The notes under the pieces were generated by a model that had not been told where the DNA came from, did no database searches, and saw only the letters and a list, made by a program, of their open reading frames with translations. Made by a program: the position numbers and the translations under genes. DNA of 64,000 nt from Novosphingobium decolorationis (lineage in GTDB: Bacteria; Pseudomonadota; Alphaproteobacteria; Sphingomonadales; Sphingomonadaceae): positions 4,123,001 through 4,187,000 of the forward strand of contig NZ_CP054856.1 in assembly GCF_018417475.1 (NCBI RefSeq), given 5' to 3'. This document shows, in pieces, positions 6,427-39,584 of this stretch; position 1 is the first letter of the stretch, and each line of letters starts with the position of its first letter.

Positions 6427-6502
<76 letters not shown>

Positions 6503-7840: not shown

Positions 7841-8085
7841 GGAGCCCGGCAGGTGATTCGCCATTCGCGCACAGGACCCGCGTCAGAACGGCCGGGGCGG
7901 ATCTTGTGCAGGTGCGAAAAGAGGGATGTGAGAGGGAACATCCCAGATGTGCCCGCGTTGAAAATTGCTCACAGCACGAAAAGGGGACTTTCGTGCGGCT
8001 TCCACGTGCCGAAACGCCGGTACGCTGCGCCGGTTCGTTGGGTCCACCTTTGCACTCTTGCGCAATTCTTCTAGAAGCCGAGCTT
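7841..8085 (+). promoter_or_regulatory. proB leader region with two perfect hairpins
   Basis: This is the rest of the 390-base obgE-proB gap. It holds GGGATGT/ACATCCC (7923-7944) and GCACGAAA/TTTCGTGC (7974-7996). No convincing small gene is present; the frame upstream of proB stays open by chance. The region probably holds the proB promoter and 5' UTR. Confidence 0.35.
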
Positions 8086-17883: not shown

Positions 17884-18414
17884 TCAGCGCGCCCCGATCT
17901 TCTCCGGTTCATCGGCCAGCATACGCGTGAGGTCGGTCCGGGCACGGGCCACGCGGCTCTTCATGGTGCCGATCGGACAGCCCGCGATATCGGCCGCCTC
18001 CTCGTAGCTGAACCCCGAAGCACCCACCAGCAGGACGGCCTCGCGCCGTTCGGGCGCCAGCTTCTGGAGGGCCGCTTCCATGTCGCCCAGATGCACCGGC
18101 CCTTCCTGGTCGGCTTCCATCACCAGCATGCGCTCCATGTCGGCGTCCTCGACGTCGGTCTGGCGCTTGGACTTGCGCAGTTCGGACAGGTAGTGGTTGC
18201 GCAGGATCGCGAAGGTCCAGGCGCGCATGTTGGTGCCGACCTGGTAGCGTTCGCGCGCCGTCCAGGCCTTGACCGCGGTCTCCTGGACCAGGTCATCGGC
18301 GAAGTCGTGACGGCCGCACAGGCCACGTGCAAAGGCGCGGAGGTGCGGCAGCACCCCCATGAGTTCGCGGCGGAATGCCTCGTCGCCCGAGGTCGGTGTG
18401 ATGGACTCAGGCAT
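17884..18414 (-). CDS. ecfG: ECF sigma factor EcfG (general stress response)
   Basis: 176 residues. Region 2 (LRAFARGLCGRHDFADDLVQETAVKAW, continuing to RAWTFAILRNHYLSELRK) and region 4 (EEAADIAGCPIGTMKSRVARAR) are typical of the EcfG group of alphaproteobacteria. EcfG directs RNA polymerase to GGAAC/CGTT promoters when its anti-sigma factor NepR is titrated by phosphorylated PhyR. It overlaps the 3' end of nepR by 8 bases, so the two are co-transcribed and probably translationally coupled. A second EcfG-like sigma factor is encoded at 26.1 kb. Confidence 0.93.
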   Translation of the reverse strand: MPESITPTSGDEAFRRELMGVLPHLRAFARGLCGRHDFADDLVQETAVKAWTARERYQVGTNMRAWTFAILRNHYLSELRKSKRQTDVEDADMERMLVMEADQEGPVHLGDMEAALQKLAPERREAVLLVGASGFSYEEAADIAGCPIGTMKSRVARARTDLTRMLADEPEKIGAR

Positions 18415-18592
18415 CGTCGCCGTCGTCCAGCTTCTTCAGGAGGTCCTGGAAGCTGTCCGGCAGCGGTTCATCCACCACGGAGTTGTACAGCTTCCTCAAT
18501 CCACCGGCCCAGCCGGGCTCGCCGTCACGGCGAACCTCCGGCGGGAGACCCGGTGTCTTGCCGGGTTGGCCATTCGATTTGGGGTGGTCCAA
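18407..18592 (-). CDS. nepR: Anti-sigma factor NepR
   Basis: 61 residues, the size of NepR. The conserved core is LRKLYNSVVDEPLPDSFQDL, the two-helix region that clamps EcfG and, on stress, the sigma-like domain of PhyR. The N-terminal tail is polar and presumably disordered. It is the first gene of a nepR-ecfG operon (8-base overlap). An inverted-repeat EcfG promoter lies about 210 bases upstream, so the pair should be autoregulated. Confidence 0.93.
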   Translation of the reverse strand: MDHPKSNGQPGKTPGLPPEVRRDGEPGWAGGLRKLYNSVVDEPLPDSFQDLLKKLDDGDDA

Positions 18593-18948: not shown

Positions 18949-20628
18949 GTGCGGATCTCGGGGGTATGTACGGTGGTTGACCAGCCTCTGCTGGACAGGG
19001 TCGAAAAGCAGGCATGGTTCCACAAGTATCCGCGTGGCTGGCCGTTCCTCCTTTTCATCATTGCAAGCGTGACGACGGCCGTCTCGGTCATGGCGATCGA
19101 GCGTGCGGACCGCGAAACGCGCCGCCTTGCGCTGGAAAGCAGCATGACCGAGGTCTCGTCCGCGCTGCAGCGCCGTGCCACCGAGACGATTGCCTTGCTG
19201 CGCGCAGGCAGTGCGCTTTTTGCGACGCAGAAGGAGGTAAGTCAGGAGCAGTTCGCCGAGTTCGTCGGGGACATGCAGCACGAAGGCGATCTCTACGGGT
19301 CGCTCGGGATCGGCTGGGCCCCCCTGGTGGAGCGCACAAACCTGCCGGCCTTTGAAGTGGCTGAGGCCGAGGCGGGGCGGGTCGATTTCCTCGTCCATCC
19401 GCGCCCGGAGCCGGACGATGAACTGGTGGCGCCCATTGTCTATCTGCGCCCTGCAAGCGCCGCGAACCTGCGCGCGATCGGCTTCGATATGTACTCCGAA
19501 GACGTGCGCCGTGCCGCGATGGAAAAGGCGATGGAACTGGGGCGGCCGATTGCCTCGGGCAAGGTTCGTCTGGTCCAGAACAGCCGCGGCGATGATTCGG
19601 CCGGGTTCCTGATCTACATGCCCGTTCTCGTCGACACCTGGGGGGGCAAGCGGGTCAAGGGCTTCATCTATTCGCCGTTCGAAGCCAGCGAGTTTCTCGA
19701 TTCGGCAAGTGAGTTGTTCTCCAGCTCGCGCCTCGAGATGGCGATCTACGACGAGAAGGTGGATCCGGGCAATCTGCTCGCCGAACACCGCGTCGAAGGG
19801 ACCGACGGACCCATGCTGACCCGGCGCCTCGATGTCGCAGGGCACCACTGGGTGCTGCAGGTGCGCGACAAGAAGGGCGGTCTGCTTTCGCCGCTTTCGC
19901 GCATCACGCTGTTCTTCGGTGCGATCGCCTCGCTCATGGTCATGGCGATCGGGCGGCTCATCACCAAGCGCGCGGCCGAAGATCGGCGGGTGCTCGAATG
20001 GCTGCGCAGCCAGGCCTCAATCCGGGATTCGCTGACACGTGAACTCAACCACCGGGTGAAGAACACGCTGGCCAATGTCCTGTCCATTGCCGCCCTGACC
20101 CGGCGCCGCTCGAAAGATATCGACGACTTCACCGACAGCCTGACCGCGCGCATCCGGGCGCTGTCGGCCACGCATGACCTGCTCTCGCAATCGGACTGGG
20201 GCTTCGCGGCTCTGGGCGATGTCGTGGCCTCCGAGCTGGCGCCTTACATGGAAGGGAGCGAGAGCCATGTCGAGATGTCGGGCCCCGACATCAAGCTTGC
20301 GCCCAACGATGCGATGTCGCTGGGCCTCGCCATCCATGAGCTGGCGACCAATGCGGCCAAATACGGTGCGCTCAGTGTCGGCGAAGGGCGGGTTCACGTC
20401 GACTGGGCTCTCATCAGCCATGACCTGGCCACGATCCGTTGGCGCGAGGAGGGCGGCCCGCCGGTGACCGAGCCGGTCAAGCGCGGGTTCGGGCGCGATC
20501 TCATCGAGAAGATCGTGGCGCACGAGTTGAAGTCCCAGGTCAATCTCGAGTTCAAGCCCGGCGGCGTCGAGTGCGAACTCAAGGTACCGGTGCGTGTCTC
20601 GCGCGACTTCGTTCTGCGCAGCCATTAG
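18949..20628 (+). CDS. CHASE-domain HWE sensor histidine kinase (PhyP/PhyK-type)
   Basis: 559 residues. TM1 is at ~31-50, a periplasmic CHASE-like sensor at ~80-240 (IGFDMYSEDVRRAAME), TM2 at ~319-338, and an HWE/HisKA_2 kinase follows with H-box His368 (ELNHRVKN), N-box HELATNAAKYGAL and W498-R-E500. It is divergent from nepR-ecfG and shares their symmetric promoter. In Sphingomonas the analogous gene at this locus, phyP, acts on PhyR, mainly as a phosphatase; in Caulobacter PhyK activates PhyR. The catalytic histidine is intact here, so either activity is possible. GTG 18949 is chosen because GAGG lies 8 bases upstream. Confidence 0.88.
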   Translation: MRISGVCTVVDQPLLDRVEKQAWFHKYPRGWPFLLFIIASVTTAVSVMAIERADRETRRLALESSMTEVSSALQRRATETIALLRAGSALFATQKEVSQEQFAEFVGDMQHEGDLYGSLGIGWAPLVERTNLPAFEVAEAEAGRVDFLVHPRPEPDDELVAPIVYLRPASAANLRAIGFDMYSEDVRRAAMEKAMELGRPIASGKVRLVQNSRGDDSAGFLIYMPVLVDTWGGKRVKGFIYSPFEASEFLDSASELFSSSRLEMAIYDEKVDPGNLLAEHRVEGTDGPMLTRRLDVAGHHWVLQVRDKKGGLLSPLSRITLFFGAIASLMVMAIGRLITKRAAEDRRVLEWLRSQASIRDSLTRELNHRVKNTLANVLSIAALTRRRSKDIDDFTDSLTARIRALSATHDLLSQSDWGFAALGDVVASELAPYMEGSESHVEMSGPDIKLAPNDAMSLGLAIHELATNAAKYGALSVGEGRVHVDWALISHDLATIRWREEGGPPVTEPVKRGFGRDLIEKIVAHELKSQVNLEFKPGGVECELKVPVRVSRDFVLRSH

Positions 20629-20798: not shown

Positions 20799-20818
20799 GA
20801 TATTTTTTGCCCTTAATT
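20799..20818 (+). repeat. Left subterminal transposase-binding-like repeat
   Basis: GATATTTTTTGCCCTTAATT, the reverse complement pattern of the right-end repeats. The tniQ stop codon (20815-20813) lies inside it. Confidence 0.8.
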
Positions 20819-21604
20819 ATGAGATTCCACTGCCATCGCGCCTATGCTTTTCGCGCGCTGCCGGGCGATGTAAACAACCGCGGCAAGCAGACGTGGCTCC
20901 TTATCGAAGGCGCGCAATAGAGCAACCCTTGCATAGTCGTCGATGCCGGAGCTTGAGATGGCCGCTTTGACCAGTGGACGGGATTGGGCTGCATCAATTG
21001 CAGCAAGGCCAAACAGCCTTACTTCCAGCCTGTGGCCCTGAAGAGCGTATAACGGATCTCCGCGGAAGGCCTTTAATGATATGGCAAAGGTGACCGCGCG
21101 CATTGCGCGCCGAAATTGCTTGGAGCTGCGTAATCGCGCGGCGTATTCAAGCCGCGCGGCGCCGTTGCGCGCACGATTTATCAGCTTTTCGGGCATCTGT
21201 TCGCCACTGGCCTTGCCGAGCGTCGGCACAAGTCTCGTCCCACAAACCTGGCAGTCGAATGCCCAGGCTCGCCTCCAATGCTTGAGCGAAAGGCCCTCTC
21301 TGGAACATTGCAGGCAATGCTGGAATGGTATCTGGGCCGTCAGCGAGGCTTCTCGTGTCGTCATTGCTGGGAAGGTCAAAGATCGCACAACATCTGGGTC
21401 AATCCGTGCGGCGTTGGCAATCTTCGCCGCCGCAGCCGCGTCGACGTTGAAGTTCAAGGCGGTGCCATGCGCGGTATCGATTCTGAGATGAGCCAGTAGT
21501 TCCGCATCATCACAGTAGTTGGCCGCCGCCAGCCTAGACAACCAACCTGACAACAACTCGTCGGGCAGCGGCGCGACAGTCTTGGGCAGCGGGTGCGGCT
21601 TCAC
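20813..21604 (-). CDS. tniQ: TniQ-family transposition adaptor
   Basis: 263 residues. The TniQ N-terminal motif PLPDELLSGWLSRLAAAN is followed by a C-x2-C ... C-x2-C zinc finger (CLQC at residues 97-100 and CQVC at 118-121). In Tn5053- and Tn7-type elements TniQ/TnsD proteins link target recognition to the AAA+ ATPase. The start is GTG 21604, whose GTGA overlaps the tniB stop by 4 bases; a start at 21664 would overlap tniB by 64 bases and is less likely. The C-terminal part is helical and unlike its neighbours. The stop falls in the left-end binding repeat. Confidence 0.88.
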   Translation of the reverse strand: MKPHPLPKTVAPLPDELLSGWLSRLAAANYCDDAELLAHLRIDTAHGTALNFNVDAAAAAKIANAARIDPDVVRSLTFPAMTTREASLTAQIPFQHCLQCSREGLSLKHWRRAWAFDCQVCGTRLVPTLGKASGEQMPEKLINRARNGAARLEYAARLRSSKQFRRAMRAVTFAISLKAFRGDPLYALQGHRLEVRLFGLAAIDAAQSRPLVKAAISSSGIDDYARVALLRAFDKEPRLLAAVVYIARQRAKSIGAMAVESHN

Positions 21605-22482
21605 ACCCCGGACTTCTCGAGCCGCCGATGGGGGTTCGCATGGCGCGACCAAACCGGCGTCCATTTTGCGATTGCGTCATCGGTGATGCATTCATCACCT
21701 GTGACAATGGCGTCGATGGAAAGATCCTTGATCAGGGCGAAGATGCGCGAGGTCACCCCGCCGGTCAGCGCAAGTATCTGCTTTAGTGACTTGACCTTCA
21801 GATTGGATTTCTTCTCGAGGGGCATTGCCGCGATGAGTGTCTGGATCATGTCCGAGAACTCGGCGTCGTCGCGCCAGTTTGGAAGGTGATGTTCGTCCAG
21901 CCGCCTGGCAAGCTGGATATCACCACGGATGGCATCGACGGCCTCGCTGACCCCCAGGCAGACCAGCGACACTTCGAGTTCATTGCTGAGATACCGCAGA
22001 ACATTGAGAAAGCGGCGCTGTTCGCGGTGGGTCCCGGCCAAGAGGTTGTGGACTTCGTCGATCATGATCATCCGCAGGCCAAGGTCGCGCAAGAGCGCGA
22101 CGACACGGACTTCGAGGGAGGCCACATTTTGAGCGCGCGCGCTCAGTGCCGTGGCCGGTGCCCCGACGGTCGCCAGGATGTGCAGATAGAACCGTCGTTC
22201 GTCGGGAGCTGGTGGTGCTTGTAACAGTAACAGCGGCGTTCGCGTAATTCCCGATGCTGGGTCATATTCCGGTGCATATCTGCGCGAAAGATTGCGGGCG
22301 ATCATCGTCTTTCCGATCCCGGACGCGCCATGCACAAGAAGGCCAGGCATACGGGTTTGCCTTGGCGCTTCGATCATACACTGCAAACGGTCCAGAACTT
22401 GTTCGGCCCGCGGAAAGCCAATCCAGATATCCGATTGAATGAGGGTGATCCGACCGTCTTCCTCTGTTTTTCCTGCCCTCAA
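21601..22482 (-). CDS. tniB: TniB-family AAA+ ATPase of transposition
   Basis: 293 residues. Walker A GASGIGKT is at residues ~52-59, Walker B MIMIDEVHNL, and a sensor-like LVCLGVSEA follows. This is the TniB/TnsC/IstB-type AAA+ regulator that assembles on target DNA and activates the transposase. No ATG exists in frame near the start. TTG 22482 begins 1 base after the tniA stop and has GGTGGAGAG about 10 bases upstream, so I take it as the start. It overlaps tniQ by 4 bases (GTGA), implying translational coupling through the three-gene operon. Confidence 0.88.
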   Translation of the reverse strand: MRAGKTEEDGRITLIQSDIWIGFPRAEQVLDRLQCMIEAPRQTRMPGLLVHGASGIGKTMIARNLSRRYAPEYDPASGITRTPLLLLQAPPAPDERRFYLHILATVGAPATALSARAQNVASLEVRVVALLRDLGLRMIMIDEVHNLLAGTHREQRRFLNVLRYLSNELEVSLVCLGVSEAVDAIRGDIQLARRLDEHHLPNWRDDAEFSDMIQTLIAAMPLEKKSNLKVKSLKQILALTGGVTSRIFALIKDLSIDAIVTGDECITDDAIAKWTPVWSRHANPHRRLEKSGV

Positions 22483-22483
22483 T

Positions 22484-24118
22484 TCACCATCTCTCCACCT
22501 TGAACAATGGGCGCGATGTATCACCCGTATCGATCGCGCGCAGCCCTTCGGTTGTTGAGACGGCCGAGTTGGCGCCCTCCAATGTCCCTTTTCTTTCACG
22601 GGATCGGCGTTCGGCCCTCGTCAGGCTCCGGCTTTCAGACTCGATTTGGCGTTGCTGTCGGATCAGCTCAGCCAGGACCAGCTCATTGGACCCGGACTTG
22701 CCAAGGGCACGGGCATTCCTCATGGCTTCGCGATATTCCCAGAGCGACACAGGCGGAATTTCCAGGTTTCGGTACCGAGCTTCGACGTATCGGTCATTAT
22801 CCAGTTCGACCCAGATCACCGAGAGGTCGCGAGGGTCGTAGCGGACGACCACCTTTCCATCCCCGCGCCCGATGTGGCCTGCAAGCGCATCGGACCAGTA
22901 CCGTATCTGGAACAGATGGATGCCGTCACGCCTGACCTTGCGCAGTTCACTTGGCAGAAAGCTCACCCGAAAGGCTTCAATCTCGAAGGGGATATCGCCC
23001 ATCATTTGCTCTGAGAGCGCCTCCCATTTGGCAACGGGCGTGCAGCCAAGACTTGAATGAATGCTGTTGTTGTAGCGGCAGATTTCCAGAGCAAACCAGC
23101 GATCGAAGTCGCTTAAGGTCATCGTGGCCATGCCCTCGGCGTCATAGTCGCCCTTGGCCACGACCGAGGATTGCGTTGTTCCAGGCAACAGGTGCACGGC
23201 CCCCATCATCGTGCCGATCAATCGTTCGATGTGCCCTCCGAAATGAGGACTGCCTGGCGGCCGATAGACCAGATCGATCCCCCATTCTGCACATGCCGAC
23301 CGAAAGGCATGCGACCGGAAATCGCGCCCGTTATCGACGTGGATGCTATGCGGTTTACCCTGCGCGGGCCAAGGAACATTGCGCACCAATTCCGCCAGAA
23401 GTTCCGCCTTGGGGGCCACAGCCTGTGTCAGGCAAAGCGCCACCGACAGACGCGAAGGTGCCTCGAGAGAGGTGTAATATCCGGTCACCATCCGCGTTGC
23501 GACGTCGATCGCCAGCGTGACCCAAGGCCGCCCAATTGGTTTGCGTTCAAAACTGTCGACGAGAATGATGTCCGCAGGCGTATGGTCGATTTGCACGACC
23601 TCCAGTGGCCGGTTTGCCTTGTTGTCGCCTACGACCGGCGCAAATTTCTGGCGGGCCGCCTTTGCGCCTTCGCGTGCCTTGGCAATTTCACGGGCATCCA
23701 TTGCATCCAGCCTGCGCTGAACCGTCCGACGTGTCGGCGGTTGCAAGCCCTGCTGCCAGCACGCGCTTCGGATTTCTGTCACGATGCGCGACAGGCTTGG
23801 GCGTTCCCGCCGTAAGAAATAACGGCGAAGATGTTCTTCGATCACCGCTTCCACCTTGCCGGATATCAAGGTTGTACCAGTCGGGCGGCCCCGTTTCCGA
23901 GAAGCCAGCGCGCTGGTGCGCCCACCCTCTTCGGCCAGACGCTTTATCCAGCGCCAGACAGTCGCCCTGCTGACACCAAGCTCCCAAACGGCGTCATTGA
24001 TGCCACTTTCCAGACTGCCAGTTCCTTTGAGATATGCCTGAACAAGCGGACGCAGAACGGCCGCCCTGCGCGCCTCCTCAGCACCAGCGGCAACGAAGTC
24101 TTCGCGATCATCATCCAT
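22484..24118 (-). CDS. tniA: TniA-family DDE transposase
   Basis: 544 residues from ATG 24118 (a GTG at 24133 is an alternative). N-terminal helix-turn-helix elements (ELGVSRATVWRWIKRL and a second near TRRTVQRRLD) bind the ends. The rve-type catalytic core has D178 (QIDHTPADI), D262 (HVDNGRD) and E298 (HIERLIG), a DD(35)E spacing. A Mu-transposase-like C-terminal beta-barrel part follows. It breaks and joins the element ends, making 5-bp target duplications as seen here. The promoter should lie among the right-end repeats, which suggests autorepression by transposase binding. Confidence 0.94.
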   Translation of the reverse strand: MDDDREDFVAAGAEEARRAAVLRPLVQAYLKGTGSLESGINDAVWELGVSRATVWRWIKRLAEEGGRTSALASRKRGRPTGTTLISGKVEAVIEEHLRRYFLRRERPSLSRIVTEIRSACWQQGLQPPTRRTVQRRLDAMDAREIAKAREGAKAARQKFAPVVGDNKANRPLEVVQIDHTPADIILVDSFERKPIGRPWVTLAIDVATRMVTGYYTSLEAPSRLSVALCLTQAVAPKAELLAELVRNVPWPAQGKPHSIHVDNGRDFRSHAFRSACAEWGIDLVYRPPGSPHFGGHIERLIGTMMGAVHLLPGTTQSSVVAKGDYDAEGMATMTLSDFDRWFALEICRYNNSIHSSLGCTPVAKWEALSEQMMGDIPFEIEAFRVSFLPSELRKVRRDGIHLFQIRYWSDALAGHIGRGDGKVVVRYDPRDLSVIWVELDNDRYVEARYRNLEIPPVSLWEYREAMRNARALGKSGSNELVLAELIRQQRQIESESRSLTRAERRSRERKGTLEGANSAVSTTEGLRAIDTGDTSRPLFKVERW

Positions 24119-24156
24119 CAATATTTGCCACACGAAGCTGCGAACCCTGTCTCAGG

Positions 24157-24317: not shown

Positions 24318-24710
24318 ATGGGTTGCACCACCAGGGCCAGCCGTTGGCTTGCGCAGGCGGACGAGATCGCGCTTGTCTGCAGCGATGCCGAGACCTCGCA
24401 GCAGGGCGCGTGCCTTGTGGCGATGATGCAGTTCCTGCGCGGGCACCAGGGCCTGGATGCGACGGCGGAGGCGCGCGCCGCGCGGTTTCTCTCCGTGGAC
24501 GCGTATGCCGATGCGGCGTTGGCGCTGTTGCCGGCGCGCTGCGCGTCGATGATCTCGCAGGCGGGCCGTGGCGAGCTCGCCTGCGCGAGCGTACGGCTCG
24601 ATGGGCGCGGTGACCCGGAGGCGACCGCGACGGCGCGCACGCCTGCGCTCGCACTCGTCGCCGCCTATGCGCAGGCGCTGGTCGAGGCGGAGCTGTCGCT
24701 CGCGGCCTGA
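24318..24710 (+). CDS. Unknown cysteine-containing small protein next to phyR
   Basis: 130 residues; no family recognised. Coding is supported by an AAGGAAAACG ribosome site before ATG 24318, GC-rich third positions and a strong terminator right after the stop. The protein is mostly alpha-helical by composition (Ala-rich) with five cysteines. Its 5' end is only 53 bases from the end of the inserted transposon, so whatever promoter lay further upstream is now 3.5 kb away on the other side. It is convergent with phyR. Confidence 0.65.
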   Translation: MGCTTRASRWLAQADEIALVCSDAETSQQGACLVAMMQFLRGHQGLDATAEARAARFLSVDAYADAALALLPARCASMISQAGRGELACASVRLDGRGDPEATATARTPALALVAAYAQALVEAELSLAA

Positions 24711-24790: not shown

Positions 24791-25588
24791 TCAGCCCAGG
24801 GGCTTGCTCGAACCGAAGAACAGCGCCTGGCTGATCGCGGCGCGCACCGTCGCCTCCTTGAAGGGTTTGGTCACCAGGTAGGTGGGCTCCGGGCGTTCGC
24901 CGGTGAGCAGGCGTTCGGGGTAGGCGGTGATGAAGATCACCGGCACGTCACCGAACTTGAGCAGGTCTTCCACCGCGTCGATCCCCGAGCTGCCGTCGGC
25001 CAGCTGAATGTCGGCGAGGACGAGCCCGGCGGGTTCGCGCTCGAACATTTCAAGCGCCTGCGTGCGCGTGGCCGCCGTGCCCACAACCGTGTGCCCCACG
25101 TCCGAGACCAGGCTTTCGAGCTGCATCGAGATCAGGGGCTCATCCTCGATGATGAGGACGCGGGTCGCGCTCTCACCTTCGATCTCGGCGATGGCCTGAG
25201 CGATCAGGGCGTCGACGGCCTCGGGCGTGACGTCGAGGATCGCGGCGGTGTCCTCGCGGCTGAATTCCTCCACCGTGTTGAGGAGCAGGGCCTGGCGGTG
25301 GGTCGGGGCAATCGTCGAGAGGCGCGCCTGGGCGGCCTGCTCGTGACGGTTCTCGGCAAGGTCTGCGCCCAGTTCACCTTCGACGTGGCCGGTCGTCCAG
25401 ATCCGCGTGAAGGCACCATAAAGGGCCGCGCGGCTTTGCGCGATGGCGTTGCGCAACTCGGTATCGGCCAGCGCCGCCTCGAGCGTTGCGCGCACGTAGG
25501 TATCGCCCGACTGCTGGGAGCCGGTGAGCGCACGTGCATAGCGGCGTAGGTAGGGAAGCTGCAGTGCGATCTGATCTGAGACGGACAT
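24791..25588 (-). CDS. phyR: Response regulator PhyR (anti-anti-sigma switch)
   Basis: 265 residues in two parts. The N-terminal ~135 form a sigma-factor-like domain (LPYLRRYARALTGSQQSGD...) that mimics EcfG. The C-terminal receiver has acidic pocket IIEDE, phospho-acceptor D193 (LADIQLADG), T/A switch residue region FITAYPE and K241 (TKPF). On phosphorylation PhyR binds NepR and frees EcfG. ATG 25588 gives the family start MSVSDQIALQ. Unlike many relatives it is separated from nepR-ecfG, here by the kinase gene and a transposon. I see no canonical EcfG promoter directly before it, but a perfect 16-bp palindrome lies about 150 bases upstream. Confidence 0.95.
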   Translation of the reverse strand: MSVSDQIALQLPYLRRYARALTGSQQSGDTYVRATLEAALADTELRNAIAQSRAALYGAFTRIWTTGHVEGELGADLAENRHEQAAQARLSTIAPTHRQALLLNTVEEFSREDTAAILDVTPEAVDALIAQAIAEIEGESATRVLIIEDEPLISMQLESLVSDVGHTVVGTAATRTQALEMFEREPAGLVLADIQLADGSSGIDAVEDLLKFGDVPVIFITAYPERLLTGERPEPTYLVTKPFKEATVRAAISQALFFGSSKPLG

Positions 25589-25735
25589 CCGTATTCCTCG
25601 TCCTTGCAATCTGTATTGTCAGTGTACCCGTCCTTGCTCCCCGAACAGGGGGGCGTCGTCGGGTGCGGCGCGATCGGGCAGGGGCTGTACCGGAGTGGGT
25701 GTCCGGGGCCTTTCCCGAGCCAGTTTTGGCGCGCG

Positions 25736-25751
25736 GACCTTGATCAAGGTC
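25736..25751. promoter_or_regulatory. Perfect 16-bp palindrome upstream of phyR
   Basis: GACCTTGATCAAGGTC is a complete dyad without spacer, 148 bases before the phyR start. Possible operator for an unidentified dimeric regulator. Confidence 0.45.
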
Positions 25752-25809
25752 TGGCGCGGAGCCGGCCTGAGAGCAACATCAAAATTTTTCCTCCGTGCGA
25801 CCAATTCCG

Positions 25810-25834
25810 GGAACCAATTTCCGGAAGCGGCGTT
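25810..25834 (+). promoter_or_regulatory. EcfG promoter for the candidate small RNA
   Basis: GGAAC (25810-25814), 16 bases, CGTT (25831-25834). Transcription should begin near 25841, two bases before the first RNA stem. Confidence 0.72.
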
Positions 25835-25840
25835 ACGCCT

Positions 25841-25940
25841 GTGTTGCCGCCGGAAACCACCCCCACCCCCCCCGCGATCCGGCGTCAACCTGATCCCAAG
25901 AGGCCTCCGATCACGACCGTGATCGGAGGCCTCAAAGTTT
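25841..25940 (+). ncRNA. Candidate GsrN-like stress small RNA
   Basis: About 100 nt in the 540-base gap between phyR and the second sigma gene. Parts seen: an EcfG promoter 7 nt upstream of the predicted 5' end; stem 25843-25853 with 25879-25889 (10 of 11 pairs) closing a 25-nt loop that is almost all C and A (CCACCCCCACCCCCCCC); a 10-nt spacer; then a perfect 15-bp hairpin with a GACC loop (25900-25933). This is the layout of GsrN of Caulobacter, a sigma-T-dependent RNA near the GSR genes whose exposed C-rich loop pairs with mRNAs such as katG. The weak point is the short T-run after the last hairpin (AAAGTTT). No peptide is evident. Existence as RNA is inferred. Confidence 0.6.
25900..25933 (+). 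terminator. 15-bp perfect hairpin, probable end of the small RNA
   Basis: GAGGCCTCCGATCAC (25900-25914) pairs fully with 25919-25933; loop GACC. Followed by AAAGTTT, so the U-tract is poor. Confidence 0.6.
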
Positions 25941-26067
25941 GGGCGCGGCATATGTTCCCAAGCTCGTACGATTTTTTGAAGGCGTACCGCAGTTGCGCGG
26001 TGCAAACTCCATTCATCGCACGCAAAGGGCATTTCGTCGCCGTGAGGCTCTCCTATGTGTGCATTCC

Positions 26068-26093
26068 GGAACTTTTCGCGCGCGCATCACGTT
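26068..26093 (+). promoter_or_regulatory. EcfG promoter of the second sigma gene
   Basis: GGAAC (26068-26072), 17 bases, CGTT (26090-26093), ending 35 bases before the ATG at 26129. Suggests positive autoregulation within the EcfG network. Confidence 0.72.
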
Positions 26094-26128: not shown

Positions 26129-26764
26129 ATGACCGCACAGCTGAGCGAAGCCGGCGAAACCACGGCGCTTACGGACGGGGAGTTCAAGCGCGCGCTTGCC
26201 GACGTCGCACCGCACCTGCGTGCCTTTGCGCGGGGCCTTTGTGGCAACCGCGACCGCGCCGACGATTTGGCGCAGGAAGCCATGCTGCGGGCCTGGGCCG
26301 CACGTGAACGCTATGCGGCAGGCACCAACTTCAAGGCCTGGACCTTCACGATCCTGCGCAACCACTTCTATTCCGAAGCGCGCCGCGCGCGCTTCCATGG
26401 CGAGTACGACGAACTGGCCGCCGAACGCATCCTGCGCACCGATGCAACCCAGGAGAGCGCCATCGAACTGGCCGATGTCCTGCGTGCTCTGGAGGCGATC
26501 CCGGCCAACTACCGTGAAGCGCTGATCCTGGTGGCTGCGGGCAATCTTTCCTACGAGGAAATCGCGAGCATCTGCGACATTGCGCTGGGAACGGTGAAAA
26601 GCCGGATCTGCCGCGCGCGCGCCATGCTTTCCAAGATCATCGAGTCGGGCCAGCTGCCGGACTCGCGCCACGAATTCGTGCTCACCGGCGAGGCCATCGA
26701 CGCCTTCTTCGCCGAGTTGGGCAAGGTTTCCAACGTCGAGGAGCTGCGCCGCATCGCGGCCTGA
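26129..26764 (+). CDS. Second EcfG-type ECF sigma factor
   Basis: 211 residues. Region 2 (LRAFARGLCGNRDRADDLAQEA, then FKAWTFTILRNHFYSEARR) and region 4 (SYEEIASICDIALGTVKSRICRARA) closely resemble those of the EcfG encoded at 17.9 kb. It has a ~35-residue C-terminal extension (from HEFVLTGEAIDAFF). GGAGGG upstream fixes ATG 26129. Paralogous EcfG factors in other alphaproteobacteria either share NepR or fine-tune the regulon. No separate anti-sigma gene is adjacent; a single-domain response regulator follows after 63 bases, probably co-transcribed. Confidence 0.9.
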   Translation: MTAQLSEAGETTALTDGEFKRALADVAPHLRAFARGLCGNRDRADDLAQEAMLRAWAARERYAAGTNFKAWTFTILRNHFYSEARRARFHGEYDELAAERILRTDATQESAIELADVLRALEAIPANYREALILVAAGNLSYEEIASICDIALGTVKSRICRARAMLSKIIESGQLPDSRHEFVLTGEAIDAFFAELGKVSNVEELRRIAA

Positions 26765-26827: not shown

Positions 26828-27247
26828 ATGCCCCACGCGGCCAATATCCTGATCGTCGAAGACGAATTTCTGCTCGCCCTGCAGCTTGAAGATATCCTCA
26901 TGGATGGCGGCCACGCCGTGGTCGGAACCGTCAGCGAGCGGTCTGCGCTGGATGCGCTGGCACAGAACCAGGTGCGGCCGGACATCGCCCTTGTCGATCT
27001 CAATCTGCGCGACGGGCTGACCGGGCCGGAAGTGGCGCGCGACTTGTGCGACAAGTTCGGGGCGCATGTCATCTACGTCACGGCCAACCCGGCGCAGATC
27101 GGCAATCCGGCGTCGCGTGCAGTGGGGGTGGTCCAGAAGCCATTCGGACCGGAAGCGATCCTCGCGGCCATCCGCTACGTCCTGGATGGGTGTCCGGAGA
27201 CGTCGCGTCCGGCCGGGCTCGACAAGCTTTCGATGGCTTCGCGTTAG
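26828..27247 (+). CDS. Single-domain response regulator
   Basis: 139 residues, a receiver domain only: acidic pair VEDE, phospho-acceptor Asp in LVDLNLRDG, switch residue in YVTANP and lysine in QKPFG. No output domain, so it must act through protein contacts or as a phosphate sink/relay. Sphingomonad GSR networks use such single-domain regulators between HWE kinases and PhyR (SdrG is the named example). This one lacks the FATGUY switch signature of that group, so orthology to SdrG is doubtful. It sits directly after the second EcfG-type gene. Confidence 0.88.
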   Translation: MPHAANILIVEDEFLLALQLEDILMDGGHAVVGTVSERSALDALAQNQVRPDIALVDLNLRDGLTGPEVARDLCDKFGAHVIYVTANPAQIGNPASRAVGVVQKPFGPEAILAAIRYVLDGCPETSRPAGLDKLSMASR

Positions 27248-27529: not shown

Positions 27530-28012
27530 TTACTCGCGCTCGTCGCCCGGACCCTGGTCCTCGGCGAGTTCCAGTTCCTTGGGCTTGCGCTTCTCGAAGA
27601 CCTTGGCGATCTTGGCTTCGGTCTCGGCGCTGAGGCCTTCGGCGGCGGCGGGGAACATGTCCTCCTCCTCCTCCTCGATATGGTGCAGGTAGCGATGGCG
27701 CATGTCCTTGAAGGTCATCAGCCAGGCGTTGCTGCTCATGTCGGTGTCGGCCAGCTCGGCGAGGAAATCGTCGATCTCCTTGTGTTCGGCGACCGAGTGG
27801 CGCGCTTCGTCGCGCAGCTTGGGGTCGGCGAGCATGGCCGCGTAAAGCGATTCCTCTTCAGCGGCGGCGTGAGCCTGCAGTTCCTTGCTGAGCGCGGCGA
27901 AGAGCGTGCGGCGCTCCTCGCTGTCACCGTGCGTTTCGCCGAGCTTGGCCAGCATGTCGCGGTGACGGTCGTGGTCGGCCTTGAGATCGGCGAAGATCCG
28001 TGCGTCTGCCAT
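27530..28012 (-). CDS. Hemerythrin HHE-domain protein
   Basis: 160 residues, soluble and very acidic. Four-helix hemerythrin pattern with candidate di-iron ligands: the first helix His (KADHDRHRDML), His/Glu in [12 protein letters not shown], His in VAEHKEIDDF and the cluster RHRYLHHIEEEEEDMFP. Such proteins bind oxygen, nitric oxide or peroxide-related species. Position inside the GSR island and a GGAAA-N17-CGTT sequence upstream suggest stress induction. Physiological partner unknown. The C-terminal tail after the domain is Lys/Glu-rich. Confidence 0.88.
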   Translation of the reverse strand: MADARIFADLKADHDRHRDMLAKLGETHGDSEERRTLFAALSKELQAHAAAEEESLYAAMLADPKLRDEARHSVAEHKEIDDFLAELADTDMSSNAWLMTFKDMRHRYLHHIEEEEEDMFPAAAEGLSAETEAKIAKVFEKRKPKELELAEDQGPGDERE

Positions 28013-28095: not shown

Positions 28096-30663
28096 TTAGC
28101 GGTGTTCGGCGCTGGCGCGTGCAATGGCCGAGCGCAGGTCACGCTCGCCATAGGGCTTGGTTACCACGGGGACGCCGGTGAAGTTGCCTTCGGGCAGCGT
28201 ACGCTCGCCATAGCCACTGGCGAAGATGAAGGCGATGCCCCTTTCGCGCAGCGCTTCGGCGATCGGCGCGCTGGTGTCCTTGCCCAGGTTGATGTCGAGC
28301 ATGGCAAAGGCGATCTCGGTGTGCTCAAGGATATCCATCGCGGCCGCCACCGACCCCGCCACGCGGCAATCGGCAAAGCCACAGGCGCGCATGTGGTCCT
28401 CGGCTTCCATCGCGATGATGACATTGTCCTCGACGATAAGCGCGGCGCCTTCGGGCAGTTGCGCGCGAAGGTCGGTTCCCTCCGGCACCTCGACCACGCC
28501 CTGGCGCGGGTCCGCACCGGGTGTTTCGAACGTTGCGACATGCTCATTGGGAATGAGGAAGAAGGCCTGCATTCCGGCCTCGGGGTAGATCACCGAGGCG
28601 CTGCCGCCCAGTTCGTGCGGGATCGTGCGCTCGATGATGGTCGAGCCGAAGCCGCGCCGGGTGGGCGGGGTAACCGGCGGACCGTCCTCCTCGCGCCAGT
28701 CGATCTCCAGAGCACCATCGTCGCTGCGGGCGATGGTGACATGGACCGTGCCCTGGCTGTCCGAAAGCGCCCCGTACTTGCACGAGTTGGTCATCAGCTC
28801 GTGAATGACCAACGCGAGGGTGGTGAAGGCGCTGGGGGCGATCAGGGCATCGGGCCCCTCGATCACGACGCGGTCCGTGCTGTGGCTGGCGTAGGCGGCC
28901 GTTTCGGTGCGGATGAGGTCGTAGAAGGAGGACGGGCGCCAGTCCTTCTCGGTCACCTGGTCGTGCGCGCGGGCGAGGGCATGGATGCGGCTGCCCACGA
29001 TCTCGGCGAACTCGTCGATGGTGCTGGCGCCGTCCTTGCTCTGCGAGACCAGGCCTCGGATGAGGTTGAGGATGTTGCGCACGCGGTGGTTGAGTTCCGC
29101 GATCAGCATATCCTGCTGCTGGCTCGCCTGCTCGCGCTGGGCGTGGGCGGCGTCCGACATGCGCAGGACGACTTCCAGGAGCGTGATGCGCAGCGATTCC
29201 GCCGCAGCCGTCTCTTCCTCGGTCCAGGGGCGTGAATAGCCGCGGCGCTCTTCCTTCCAGAGGTCGAAGCTCTTGCGCGGGGTGAGGCGCGCGCCATTCG
29301 GGCCGAGCTCGACCGACTTCTCCGGATTGCCCGCCCAGTGCACCTCGCGCAGCTGCTCCTTGCGGAACAGGACGATGTAGTCGCGCGGGGAGCGGCTGAC
29401 GGGAAGGGCCATGACGCCCGCGGCCTTGTCGGCCCATTCGCGCGCGGGCTCGAAGATGGAGGTGATGTTGTCGGTCGCCCACACGGTGCTGGCGCCCGCG
29501 GTGTTGAGGAAGCGGGCGAGCTGGCCGAACTGGGCGCGGGTCGGGGTGAGGCCGTCGGCCATGAATTCGCCGTCGACCCAGCCGATGGCACCGTCAAAGC
29601 CGATCACCCGTCCGATCGACTCGCTGAAGTCGCCAAAGGCGTCGAGCAGCGAGCCGCCACCGGCGACCCGGCTCATGATCTCGTCATGCAGCTTCATCGA
29701 ATCGCCGCGGCGTTCGAAGGCCGCGTCGGTTTCCTTCTGCTCGAGAAGGTAGGCGAAGAACTCGCCGAACAGCTCCGCTGCCGTGCGCACCGAGTAGGAC
29801 AGGCGCAGCGGGCTGTAGTGATGGCAGGCCATCAGGCCCCACAGCTTGCCCCGGCGCATGATCGAGACCGACATCGAGGCCTTGACCCCCATGTTGCGCA
29901 GGTACTCGATGTGGATCGGGGAGACCGCGCGCAGGCCCGACATCGAAAGGTCGAGCGGATCGCCTGTCGGTCCCGTGGCGGGAATGACCGGCACGGTGGG
30001 ATCGTCGATGTCGGTGATGATGCGCAGCAGGTTGCGGGTGTAAAGCTTGCGTGCCTGCTTGGGGATGTCCGATGCGGGAAAGTGCAGGCCCTTGAAACTG
30101 TCGACAAGGCCGTTGAGGCTCTCGGCGATGACTTCGCCGGCACCTTCCTCGGAGAAGCGGTAGACCATGACCCGGTCGAAGCCGGTGAGGCCGCGCAAGT
30201 GGCGCGCCGCGCTTGCGCACAGCTTCTCGATCGATTCGGTCTGGCGCATGCGCTCGATCATCGGACGCACGTAGGAAACGAAGTCGCGGCGACGCCCGCT
30301 TTCGTGCTCCTCGATCTCGACCACGAAGGAGCGGCCCGAGGTGTGCACGGCAAGGTCGAAGAGGCGCCCGTCGTTCAGGAGGTCGACCTCGAAGATGCGT
30401 TCGACCGTGTTCGAGGAGCCCAGGATCTGCAGGCGCGAGCGGATGTCGTGCATCGCGCTGGGCGAAAGGAACTGCGCGGCGTTGAGGCCGATCAGGTCCT
30501 GCGCGCTCTGCCCGAACAGGGCATCGCAGTTGCGCGAGGCATGGTTGATGATCCAGTCGCTCGAGAACGAGATCAGCCAGCCGAAACTCTGGATCCGTCC
30601 AATGATGTGGATCGGTTCCAGGTCGCAGGTGGAGAGGTCGACTTGGTGTTGGTCTTCAGCCAT
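28096..30663 (-). CDS. bphP: Bacteriophytochrome HWE histidine kinase with C-terminal receiver
   Basis: 855 residues. PAS with biliverdin-binding Cys13 (STCDLEPIHI), GAF with HFPASDIPKQAR (196-205), the conserved His252 region (SPIHIEYLRNMG) and MACHHYSP, PHY with tongue PRKSFDLW, HWE kinase with H526 (ELNHRVRN) and W-x-E (DWREEDGPP), then a receiver (about 742-855, acceptor D790, switch motif FASGYG). It senses red/far-red light through biliverdin. HWE kinases are the class that feeds PhyR, so light input into the stress response is plausible. It overlaps the heme oxygenase gene by 8 bases, and the operon has a canonical EcfG promoter. Confidence 0.95.
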   Translation of the reverse strand: MAEDQHQVDLSTCDLEPIHIIGRIQSFGWLISFSSDWIINHASRNCDALFGQSAQDLIGLNAAQFLSPSAMHDIRSRLQILGSSNTVERIFEVDLLNDGRLFDLAVHTSGRSFVVEIEEHESGRRRDFVSYVRPMIERMRQTESIEKLCASAARHLRGLTGFDRVMVYRFSEEGAGEVIAESLNGLVDSFKGLHFPASDIPKQARKLYTRNLLRIITDIDDPTVPVIPATGPTGDPLDLSMSGLRAVSPIHIEYLRNMGVKASMSVSIMRRGKLWGLMACHHYSPLRLSYSVRTAAELFGEFFAYLLEQKETDAAFERRGDSMKLHDEIMSRVAGGGSLLDAFGDFSESIGRVIGFDGAIGWVDGEFMADGLTPTRAQFGQLARFLNTAGASTVWATDNITSIFEPAREWADKAAGVMALPVSRSPRDYIVLFRKEQLREVHWAGNPEKSVELGPNGARLTPRKSFDLWKEERRGYSRPWTEEETAAAESLRITLLEVVLRMSDAAHAQREQASQQQDMLIAELNHRVRNILNLIRGLVSQSKDGASTIDEFAEIVGSRIHALARAHDQVTEKDWRPSSFYDLIRTETAAYASHSTDRVVIEGPDALIAPSAFTTLALVIHELMTNSCKYGALSDSQGTVHVTIARSDDGALEIDWREEDGPPVTPPTRRGFGSTIIERTIPHELGGSASVIYPEAGMQAFFLIPNEHVATFETPGADPRQGVVEVPEGTDLRAQLPEGAALIVEDNVIIAMEAEDHMRACGFADCRVAGSVAAAMDILEHTEIAFAMLDINLGKDTSAPIAEALRERGIAFIFASGYGERTLPEGNFTGVPVVTKPYGERDLRSAIARASAEHR

Positions 30664-31222
30664 CGGCGCGAGGTGTCTCCATGTTCGACCCGACGGCGAA
30701 GGCGGTCTCGAAGTGAGCGAATGTGGCAAGGGCGGCGGCTTCGACCGCACGCTCTTCGGACGGGCCGAAGCTGCGCGCGCGCGCCCAGGTGTTGAGGGCC
30801 TTCCAGACGGCGTGGCCGGTATCGTCTTCCATGTAGCGCGAAGGCAGTCCCGTCTCGCGGCCATGGTAGCCTTCGGCGCGGATCACCGCGTTGCCCAGAC
30901 GCGAGCCGGCGATCACATAGGCCACGCCTGCGCCGCCGCAAGGGGCGTGAACGCAGGCATCGGGTTCGGGGGCCGGAAGGGCCGACATGGACAGGCCGCG
31001 TTCGGCAAGGTCGGCGGCGAGCATGGCGGGAAAGTCCGGGCAGGGCATGTCGAGCTCTTCCTCGACGAAACGGCGGAACGGCGCATCGAGGCCCTTCAGG
31101 GCCACGGCGTGGGCCGCAAGAAAGCGCGCGCAATCGTCCGCAGCGCCCAGGTCAAGGGCGCCGAAGGCCGCATCGAGCCGGTCGTGCGAGGCTCGTGTCA
31201 CTGCGCGCAGCTGGCTCAGCAT
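30656..31222 (-). CDS. bphO: Biliverdin-producing heme oxygenase (BphO-like)
   Basis: 188 residues. It opens heme to biliverdin, the chromophore of the phytochrome encoded next. N-terminal LRAVTRASHDRLDAAF carries the proximal heme histidine typical of bacterial heme oxygenases. Later VAYVIAGSRLGNAVI is the distal helix glycine region. It is the first gene of the bphO-bphP operon; its stop overlaps the bphP start by 8 bases (ATGGCTGA), indicating coupled synthesis of chromophore enzyme and apoprotein. ATG 31222 gives the family start. Confidence 0.93.
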   Translation of the reverse strand: MLSQLRAVTRASHDRLDAAFGALDLGAADDCARFLAAHAVALKGLDAPFRRFVEEELDMPCPDFPAMLAADLAERGLSMSALPAPEPDACVHAPCGGAGVAYVIAGSRLGNAVIRAEGYHGRETGLPSRYMEDDTGHAVWKALNTWARARSFGPSEERAVEAAALATFAHFETAFAVGSNMETPRADG

Positions 31223-37328: not shown

Positions 37329-39584
37329 TCAGTAGCGGTCCGCGTTCATCACCTTGGTCCAGGCCGCGACGAAGTCGGACACGAACAGGTCCTGTGCGTC
37401 AGCCGAAGCATAGACTTCTGAGACGGCGCGCAGCTCCGAGTTGGAACCGTAGATCAGGTCGACCGGGGTGGCCGTCCACTTCGCCTCTCCGCTTGCGCGG
37501 TCCTTGCCCTCGTAGAGGCCGGGGGAGGCCGACTTCGACCAGACGGTGTCCATCGTCAGCAGGTTGACGAAGAAGTCGTTGGTGAGCTGGCCGGGGCGGC
37601 TGGTGAAGATCCCTGCCGTCGACCCGCCTGCATTCGCGCCCAGCGCGCGCATGCCGCCGAGAAGAACGGTCATTTCGGGAACGGTCAGGCCCAGCATGTC
37701 GGCCTTGTCGACCATGGCGTCGGCCGGCGCGTAGTTGGCACCTTCGCTGTAGTAGTTGCGGAAGGCATCGGCCTTGGGCTCCAGATAGGCGAAGGAGGCC
37801 GCGTCGGTCATGTCCTGCGTGGCATCGACACGGCCGGGCGTGAAGGGCACCTTGACCGGGTGTCCGGCGTCGCTCGCGGCCTTTTCGATCGCGGCCGCAC
37901 CGCCAAGAACGATGAGGTCGGCCATCGAGATCGGCGTACCGGCTTTGGCCGCGCTCGCGCGGATCTTGTCCAACTGGCCCAGCACCATCTTCAGTTCAGT
38001 CGGATCGTTGACCGCCCAGGAGGTCTGCGGATCGAGCCGCAGGCGTGCGCCGTTCGCGCCGCCGCGCATGTCGGTGCCCCGGTACGTCGCGGCCGAGGCC
38101 CAGGCGGTGCGCACGAGCTGGGGCACGGTCAGCCCGGAGGACAGGATCGTCGACTTGAGGGCGTCCGCCTGCGCGGCGCTGAGCGGGGCGAAGCTGGGTT
38201 CGGGCAGTGGGTCCTGCCACACGAAGGTCTCACCGGGCACATCGGCGCCCAGGTAGCGGGCCTCGGGTCCCAGATCGCGGTGGGTCAGCTTGAACCAGGC
38301 GCGCGCGAAGGCCTTGGCGAACAGGCTCGGGTCCTGCTGCCAGCGTTCGAGTACCGCGCGGAAGCCCGGATCGCGCTTGAGCGCGATGTCGGTGGTGAAC
38401 ATGATCGGCGCGTGGAACTTGCCCTCGACATGCGCGTCGGGGACGAGGCTGGCGGCGGCCGGATCGGTCGGGATCCATTGCGTGGCGCCAGCGGGGCTCT
38501 TGGTCGTCGTCCACTCGAAGTTGAGGAGGTTGTCGATGTACTGGGTGGTGAACCGGGTGGGAGCGGCCGACCAGGCGCCTTCAAGGCCGGAGGTCAGCGT
38601 GTCCTCGGCGTTGCCCTTGCCACAGGAGTTCTTCCAGCCAAGGCCCTGCTGTTCGACGCCCGCCGCGGTGGGCTCGTCACCCAGGCAGTCCTCGGGCTTG
38701 TGCGCACCGTGCGCCTTGCCGAAGGTATGCCCGCCCGCGATCAGAGCCAGCGTTTCCTCGTCGTCCATCGCCATCTGGCCGAAGGCGACGCGGATGGCCT
38801 GCGCGGCCGAAACCGGGTCGTGGTTGCCACCCGGACCTTCCGGGTTGACGTAGATGAGGCCCATCGTGGTCGCCGCGAGCGACTTCTGCAGCTTGCCGTC
38901 CTTGGTGTAACGCTCGGAGCCCATCATCTTGGTTTCCGGGCCCCAGTAGACGAGGTCGGGCTGCCAGGCATCGACGCGGCCACCGGCAAAGCCGAGCGTC
39001 TTGAAGCCCATGTCTTCCAGGGCCACCGTGCCCGACAGCACCATGAGGTCGCCCCAGGAGAGCTTGCGGCCATACTTCTGCTTGATCGGCCAGACGAGGC
39101 GGCGGGCCTTGTCGAGGCTGACGTTGTCGGGCCAGGAGTTCAGGGGATCGAAGCGCTGTTCGCCGCCATCCGAACCGCCCCGGCCATCGCCCACGCGGTA
39201 GGTGCCGGCCGAGTGCCAGGCCATGCGGATGAAGAAGGGGCCGTAGTGTCCGTAATCGGCGGGCCACCAGGGCTGGGAGGTCGTGAGGACCTTGCGGATG
39301 TCCTCCTTGACGGCGGCAAGGTCGAGGCTGGCGAACTCGGCGGCGTAGTCGAAGTCGGCGCCGTAGGGGTTGGACATCGCCTCGTGCTGGCGCAGCTGGG
39401 CGAGGTCGAGGCGCTGGGGCCACCAGTCCTCGTTGGTCATGCCGTGGATCTTGGCGCGGACCGAGGTGTCCTCTTCCATCACGGTTTCGTTCTCGACCGC
39501 GGCGAAAGCTGCGTGGGGGCTGAGAAGGGTGAGCGCACTGCCCAGAAGGGCGGCGCGAAGGGTCATCTTTGTGTTCTTGGGCAT
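37329..39584 (-). CDS. katG: Catalase-peroxidase KatG with signal peptide
   Basis: 751 residues. Bifunctional heme enzyme removing hydrogen peroxide. Distal site R120-x-x-W123-H124 ([13 protein letters not shown]), proximal histidine in [13 protein letters not shown], and both halves of the duplicated peroxidase fold present. Unlike most cytoplasmic KatG it begins with a clear export signal (hydrophobic LLGSALTLL, cut near AFAAV), as in periplasmic KatP-type enzymes. GGTGGAGAGG precedes the ATG. Divergent from putP; the 367-base gap holds perfect dyads at 39689-39707 and 39724-39733. In Caulobacter katG is the main target of GsrN, which makes this gene of interest for the candidate RNA at 25.8 kb. 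Confidence 0.95.

Follow-up and report, generated by a model that had tools for sequence, protein, structure and literature searches.

A candidate GsrN-like small RNA under EcfG-type control beside phyR in Novosphingobium and its relatives, with a promoter-like element on the opposite strand

A C-loop RNA in the window and the closest described systems

To our knowledge, detailed understanding of how the alphaproteobacterial general stress response (GSR) is controlled after transcription is limited to one RNA, studied in one genus. The closest described system is GsrN of Caulobacter crescentus, which uses an exposed C-rich loop as its base-pairing element and has predicted relatives in Caulobacteraceae and Rhizobiaceae; the legend of figure 9 in the same paper gives Erythrobacter litoralis as lacking an apparent gsrN-like gene (PMC5869019, in the part of the paper drawn on here). 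In that part, GsrN has an EcfG/sigma-T-type promoter, a length of about 100 nt, a 5′ hairpin with the C-rich loop, a linker, and a 3′ terminator hairpin, and most of its predicted homologues lie in a GSR neighbourhood (PMC5869019). GsrN is also described as pairing with the katG leader and as being processed by cleavage to a stable 5′ isoform.

The candidate RNA described here, from a 64,000-nucleotide stretch of the Novosphingobium decolorationis genome (hereafter called the window), shares each of these features, with phyR as its divergent neighbour in 59 of 59 loci. This likeness is one of promoter, locus and structural plan, as described for GsrN. Two features of the window clade differ from GsrN, namely a promoter-like element that runs antisense to the RNA, and a weak U-tract. 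The preliminary description of the locus had proposed a GsrN-like counterpart with katG as a candidate target. The counterpart is supported by sequence, with its EcfG-type promoter, an RNA of ~100 nt that is alone in the relatives, a C-rich loop, a GSR locus and covarying stems, while the katG link, a feature of the GsrN system, is unsupported here.

The candidate RNA is assigned to positions 25841..25938 of the plus strand from its fold, its covariation and its model matches; the predicted 5′ end is at about 25841, and the 3′ end is placed from the second hairpin. All of its elements lie on the same strand. The EcfG-type promoter GGAAC-N16-CGTT (25810..25834) consists of GGAAC (25810-25814) and CGTT (25831-25834), separated by a 16-nt spacer, and we infer that the RNA is transcribed from this promoter with EcfG as the driver. 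First, the 5′ stem-loop (25843..25889; arms 25843-25854 and 25878-25889) is formed by 25843-25846 and 25848-25854, which pair with 25878-25884 and 25886-25889, and it exposes a 23-nt loop (25855-25877) of nearly all C and A, including a run of eight C. Second, the unpaired linker CUGAUCCCAA (25890..25899), parts of which are conserved across 46 sequences, is possibly another exposed region. Finally, a perfect, terminator-like 15-bp hairpin (25900..25933; arms 25900-25914 and 25919-25933), supported by covariation, ends the RNA; the U-tract behind it, AAAGUUU, is poor. The 98-nt segment folds with −47.9 kcal/mol (z −8.0), which none of 200 shuffles equals. The promoter, the C/A loop and the 15-bp perfect hairpin had all been recognised in the preliminary description, and its stem (25843-25853 with 25879-25889) and predicted 5′ end agree with those given here to 1-2 bases.

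The window contains six GGAACN16-17CGTT sites versus 0.99 expected, and none of 100 shuffles reaches six. The sites at 7935, 13799, 31381 (minus strand) and 31483 are likely further EcfG-regulon promoters. In most of the loci viewed by eye, an A/T-rich block (e.g. AAAATTTTT) lies upstream of the −35 element of the RNA promoter, and is perhaps an UP element.

Is the RNA a member of a described family? At the gathering thresholds of Rfam, no model matched it, and the sole match in the window was the tRNA at 6427. The Caulobacter small RNA CC1840 (RF01521) resembles it in having a 5′ hairpin with a C-rich loop and then a GC-rich hairpin. The end-to-end match of CC1840 to one relative (L049) scored 29.0 bits versus a gathering threshold of 50 (E 3.1) and was judged to be due to chance; CC1840 gave no match to the window copy, the RNA was not among the matches of a genome-wide CC1840 search in 16 genomes of the family, and a class-wide RF01521 search found 0 of 240 genomes. 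The alphaproteobacterial small RNA family ar14 (RF02344) is characterised by an anti-Shine-Dalgarno motif. Its match to the same relative (24.4 bits versus a gathering threshold of 58.8, E 0.77) was likewise judged to be chance, and the window copy had no ar14 match. In the open-access literature, we found no paper on this RNA by title or by the start of the abstract, a search that a mention within the text could escape.

Conservation and distribution of the RNA

A DNA search of 61 genomes found six relatives beyond the window's own. In these six, the C-rich loop and the hairpin are retained behind a GGAAC-N16/17-CGTT promoter, and the stems change in step. A covariance model (R1), and then a broader one (R2, 48 sequences), were run on whole genomes. 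In the 48-sequence alignment, two-sided changes occur in 20 of the 26 pairs, namely in seven of 10 in helix 1 and 13 of 16 in helix 2, so that the compensatory changes expected in both stems among relatives are present. The paired cells amount to 93.6%, as compared to 81.7% after shuffling and no more than 48.4% with the partners slid, and none of 500 shuffles attains any of the five covariation measures. Because this alignment was fitted to the covariance model, we also give the result of RNAalifold on a plain MAFFT alignment (46 sequences): 21 pairs, 15 of them with two-sided changes, where the first stem is down to six pairs, three with two-sided changes. Outside the stems, AUCC in the linker is invariant in 46 of 46 sequences and the adjoining G and C are at least 90% conserved, and the loop consensus outside the window clade is GAGACCCCCC(C)UCCCGUCCAAGCGG, with little variation.

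These patterns bear on whether the conserved segment codes for a small protein. A 75-aa frame does cross the segment in the window, but the loop length differs by single bases among the relatives and the changes track base pairing, and a coding function is therefore extremely improbable. The reading as a GsrN-like, EcfG-controlled C-loop small RNA is, at the level of sequence, well supported.

At 52 bits or more, R2 finds the RNA in 116 of 195 genomes of the same genus and in 102 of 249 genomes of the same family (own genome included in both, counted from the listings); at the search cut-offs, the counts become 118 of 195 genomes (E 1e-6) and 120 of 249 genomes (E 0.01), respectively. In the family search, the best scores per genome drop from 52.5 bits to 34.2 with no genome in between, and two genomes of the genus search (G008 and G083) reach only 37-39 bits with their best match. 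Weaker second matches of 38-41 bits in four genomes of the genus (G068:C9, G173:C28, G192:C49 and G086:C1) are possible paralogues. In a class sample of 337 genomes, just four exceed 70 bits, namely the window's own and three more of its family. A pattern scan of genome contigs, made for names, found at least 119 stretches, 80 of them among the matches listed, and 66 of these 80 fit the model at 59 bits or more. The names of these 66, among the matches listed, are Novosphingobium, Erythrobacter, Qipengyuania, Porphyrobacter, Altererythrobacter, Croceicoccus, Tsuneonella, Citromicrobium and their kin, with a few loosely named MAGs. The remaining 14 of the 80 (e.g. Nocardia and Hyphomonas) do not fit the model and were set aside as chance pattern matches. 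In these samples, the RNA matches are confined to the Novosphingobium/Erythrobacter group.

A counterpart is strongly conserved in a large sphingomonad group, which includes a genus with one species reported to be without gsrN, and its conservation opens a second lineage to the question of what EcfG-driven C-loop RNAs regulate. Records that carry the name Erythrobacter and are of species other than E. litoralis contain the RNA, and the statement on E. litoralis in the figure legend (PMC5869019) should be revisited for the genus.

The same surveys address the possibility that the RNA is a true orthologue of Caulobacter GsrN, derived from a common ancestor. The shared plan of EcfG promoter, GSR locus, length of about 100 nt, C-run 5′ hairpin, linker and terminator speaks for this possibility (PMC5869019, as far as the part drawn on here describes it). 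However, the 337-genome class sample, which may not include Caulobacteraceae, yielded no convincing R2 match outside the family. The best one, at 35.2 bits (L102), was rejected as a carrier, with phyR absent from its 3-kb locus and an EcfG promoter absent from the 120 bases upstream. In addition, we inspected 30 hand-picked genomes of the family without a strong match, 25 of which have PhyR, in 26 places. In 25 of these places (L262, at a contig end, was omitted), the combination of an EcfG-type promoter with a C-rich hairpin behind it was not seen; a GGAAC-type site does occur on that strand in four of them, with other sequence after it. The lack of this combination in the control phyR regions suggests a later origin or a fast turnover, and we regard orthology with GsrN as unlikely. 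On the analogy with GsrN, the small RNA nevertheless likely works in a similar manner.

The GSR neighbourhood and a probable exchange of the phyR promoter

In the window, phyR (24791..25588, minus strand) encodes the PhyR sigma-like and receiver domains according to Pfam, with the ATG picked by likeness to relatives. On the other side of the RNA lie a second ecfG-type sigma factor gene, hereafter called ecfG2 (26129..26764, plus strand, Pfam), with its own EcfG-type promoter by sequence pattern, GGAAC-N17-CGTT (26068..26093, plus strand), and a single-domain response regulator (26828..27247, plus strand, Pfam). The ecfG gene beside the RNA is the second copy, because a nepR-ecfG pair is located elsewhere (17884-18592), a point missed in the preliminary description. 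In this pair, the first ecfG (17884..18414, minus strand; Pfam) is 51.8% identical over residues 7-120 to the nepR-adjacent ecfG of a relative (L088), and nepR (18407..18592, minus strand; 61 aa) has the Pfam NepR domain. Homologues of nepR were found in 20 of 20 relatives searched.

Several further genes were noted around this locus. The GSR locus is split, between phyR and the GSR kinase (18949-20628), by three ORFs on the minus strand (20813-24133) whose Pfam domains are TniQ, TniB and Mu-type transposase/integrase, and a 130-aa ORF (24318-24710, plus strand), for which a Pfam match is absent, lies between these transposition genes and the 3′ end of phyR. A phytochrome with an HWE kinase and a receiver-like end (28096-30864, Pfam) is situated beside the GSR genes and might feed light signals into the stress response, and a hemerythrin-domain gene (27530-28012) lies between it and the GSR genes.

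We compared 59 loci (L009-L067), consisting of the 30 best matches of one search, the window's own among them, and the 29 further best matches of another, which are not all of the matches. All 59 have the divergent phyR neighbour upstream and a GGAAC-N16/17 promoter of the same kind as in the window, with CGTT, CATT or, once, GGTT as the −10 element; a stricter pattern recovers the promoter in 125 of 133 loci and misses it in eight. In 20 of 20 ten-kb loci, phyR is near the RNA. In the loci from other genera (L039-L067), the −10 element of the RNA promoter is CATT in 28 of 29 and that of the phyR promoter is CGTT, and the two within one intergenic region perhaps represent two EcfG promoter classes.

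The gene ecfG2 adjoins the RNA in 29 of the 59 loci, all of the window type; N. malaysiense MUSC 273 (L137) is a further strain that shows the window arrangement. This raises the question of whether the RNA is a 5′ leader or attenuator of ecfG2 rather than a stand-alone small RNA. In the window clade, ecfG2 lies within ~160-340 nt downstream of the RNA, and the U-tract of the hairpin is weak, with a mean of 3.2 T in the eight alignment letters past the hairpin (14 window-type rows) versus 5.75 in the 32 others, which are without ecfG2. These two features would suit a leader, but a separate EcfG promoter precedes ecfG2 at 26068, and the RNA is kept in 86 loci without ecfG2 behind it. We conclude that the RNA is not an ecfG leader, because outside the window clade more U follows the hairpin and no ecfG lies directly downstream; the leader reading is very unlikely.

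How is phyR transcribed in the loci that carry ecfG2? On the minus strand of the window, at the 3′ end of the RNA, a promoter-like GGAAC-N16-CTTT element (25934..25958, hereafter called P_anti), which had escaped the preliminary description, faces phyR through the RNA, with a predicted start at about 25927. A transcript from this start would cross the RNA in antisense and reach phyR ~340 nt on. In the window alone, where 0.64 sites of this type are expected, the element is not above chance, and the evidence for it is therefore comparative. We counted the promoters in 133 loci, setting aside nine with short flanks, one of which (L161) has P_anti. Of the 38 loci with ecfG2, 35 contain P_anti, as do 0 of the 86 without it. 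In contrast, the canonical phyR-proximal GGAAC-N15-18-CGTT, between phyR and the RNA, occurs in 65 of 81 loci without ecfG2 and in 0 of 37 with it. Twelve record pairs are identical over the promoter and the RNA; with the second of each pair removed, the counts are 29 of 32 and 0 of 82 for P_anti, and 0 of 32 and 61 of 77 for the canonical promoter (with and without ecfG2, respectively). The exceptions are three loci with ecfG2 and no P_anti (L169, L197 and L198), and 16 of the 81 loci without ecfG2 in which the canonical promoter was also not seen.

These counts are not independent, because on a quick PhyR tree (79 rows) the promoter exchange is essentially one event: the P_anti loci need two changes, within one starred clade. 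The exchange would thus have occurred about once and been kept afterwards. One locus with neither ecfG2 nor P_anti (L036) and one with ecfG2 and no P_anti (L197) branch at the base of the P_anti clade, which suggests that the RNA came first, then ecfG2, and then P_anti; in L169 and L198, the element may have been lost later.

The pattern used for these counts (GGAAC-N16/17-NNTT) was widened after AATT cases had been seen, and the first pattern found the element in 24 of the 30 window-type loci. GTTCC is present at the P_anti position in 29 of the 30, and the −10 element in these 29 is CTTT in 22, AATT in five, CATT in one and GATT in one, never CGTT. This non-consensus −10, together with the chance level in the window alone, could mean that the minus-strand element represents a relic, or else a binding site under conservation, while phyR is read from a nearer, unrecognised promoter; moreover, a GGAAC-N16-GGTT overlapping the RNA's own promoter could also face phyR in 12 of the 30 loci. 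However, wherever a window-type locus has the element (29 of 30), its spacing is 16-17, and the spacer is less conserved: the average over 27 non-redundant sequences is 1.6 bits for the nine defining columns, 0.8 for the 16 spacer columns and 0.3 for the 12 columns beyond. In addition, the element is seen solely where the canonical phyR promoter is missing. The relic or binding-site reading is somewhat unlikely. If P_anti is the phyR promoter, then the phyR leader (25589..25927, minus strand, as placed from the predicted start) is antisense to nearly the entire RNA.

Proposed mechanism and candidate targets

We consider it quite probable that the locus encodes a stand-alone, EcfG-dependent, GsrN-like C-loop small RNA of ~98 nt, and that in the ecfG2 clade phyR is transcribed antisense through it. 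In trans, the exposed C-rich loop would base-pair with G-rich sites in mRNAs, and the small RNA would thereby carry the general stress response beyond transcription. In the ecfG2 clade, phyR, which is without its canonical promoter, would now be read from P_anti, antisense through the small RNA. Then, the small RNA and the phyR leader could pair along nearly the whole RNA, or impede each other's transcription. Either way, feedback would arise between the small RNA and the GSR switch, besides the targets in trans. On the antisense arrangement, feedback between the RNA and phyR is a direct prediction, and one that is easily tested.

More tentatively, we propose that in ecfG2-bearing Novosphingobium an EcfG-controlled, trans-acting small RNA has been captured in the phyR 5′ leader, between facing EcfG-type promoters whose starts are ~85 bp apart. 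If this is true, each activation of the stress sigma factor would yield both the C-loop small RNA and a phyR mRNA with a near-complete antisense leader, which would place an RNA-level, self-timed brake or sponge inside the partner switch that controls the general stress response. The order of assembly (RNA, second ecfG, new promoter) would also be readable from the basal relatives.

Which mRNAs would the loop bind? Pairing of the loop with target mRNAs is predicted from its sequence. The proposed target katG (37329-39584), which encodes 751 aa with a peroxidase domain, gains no support: the predicted score of the loop against its start region is −19.1 kcal/mol, weaker than the mean of −21.4 across 60 crude gene calls from the window, each taken at its start region (ecfG2 was scored from a wrong start), and near the katG start codon only GGTGG is seen. 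The best-scoring gene, the CHASE-HWE kinase at 18949 (−36.2), was rejected, as its G-rich site is not kept, by eye, at the starts of the relatives' genes. The 12-nt loop complement GGACGGGAGGGG, for the loop type outside the window, has seven non-self sites in 30 genomes versus 26 for the reversed control. A long, conserved complement to the loop was not seen in these genomes, and the tests of katG, of the perfect loop complement and of the GSR genes revealed nothing conserved. A G-rich GGGGGGAGG or GGAGGGGGAGG, both absent from the nepR leader in the window, lies just 5′ of nepR in four of 20 relatives (L083, L084, L086 and L087), and is partly complementary to the loop.
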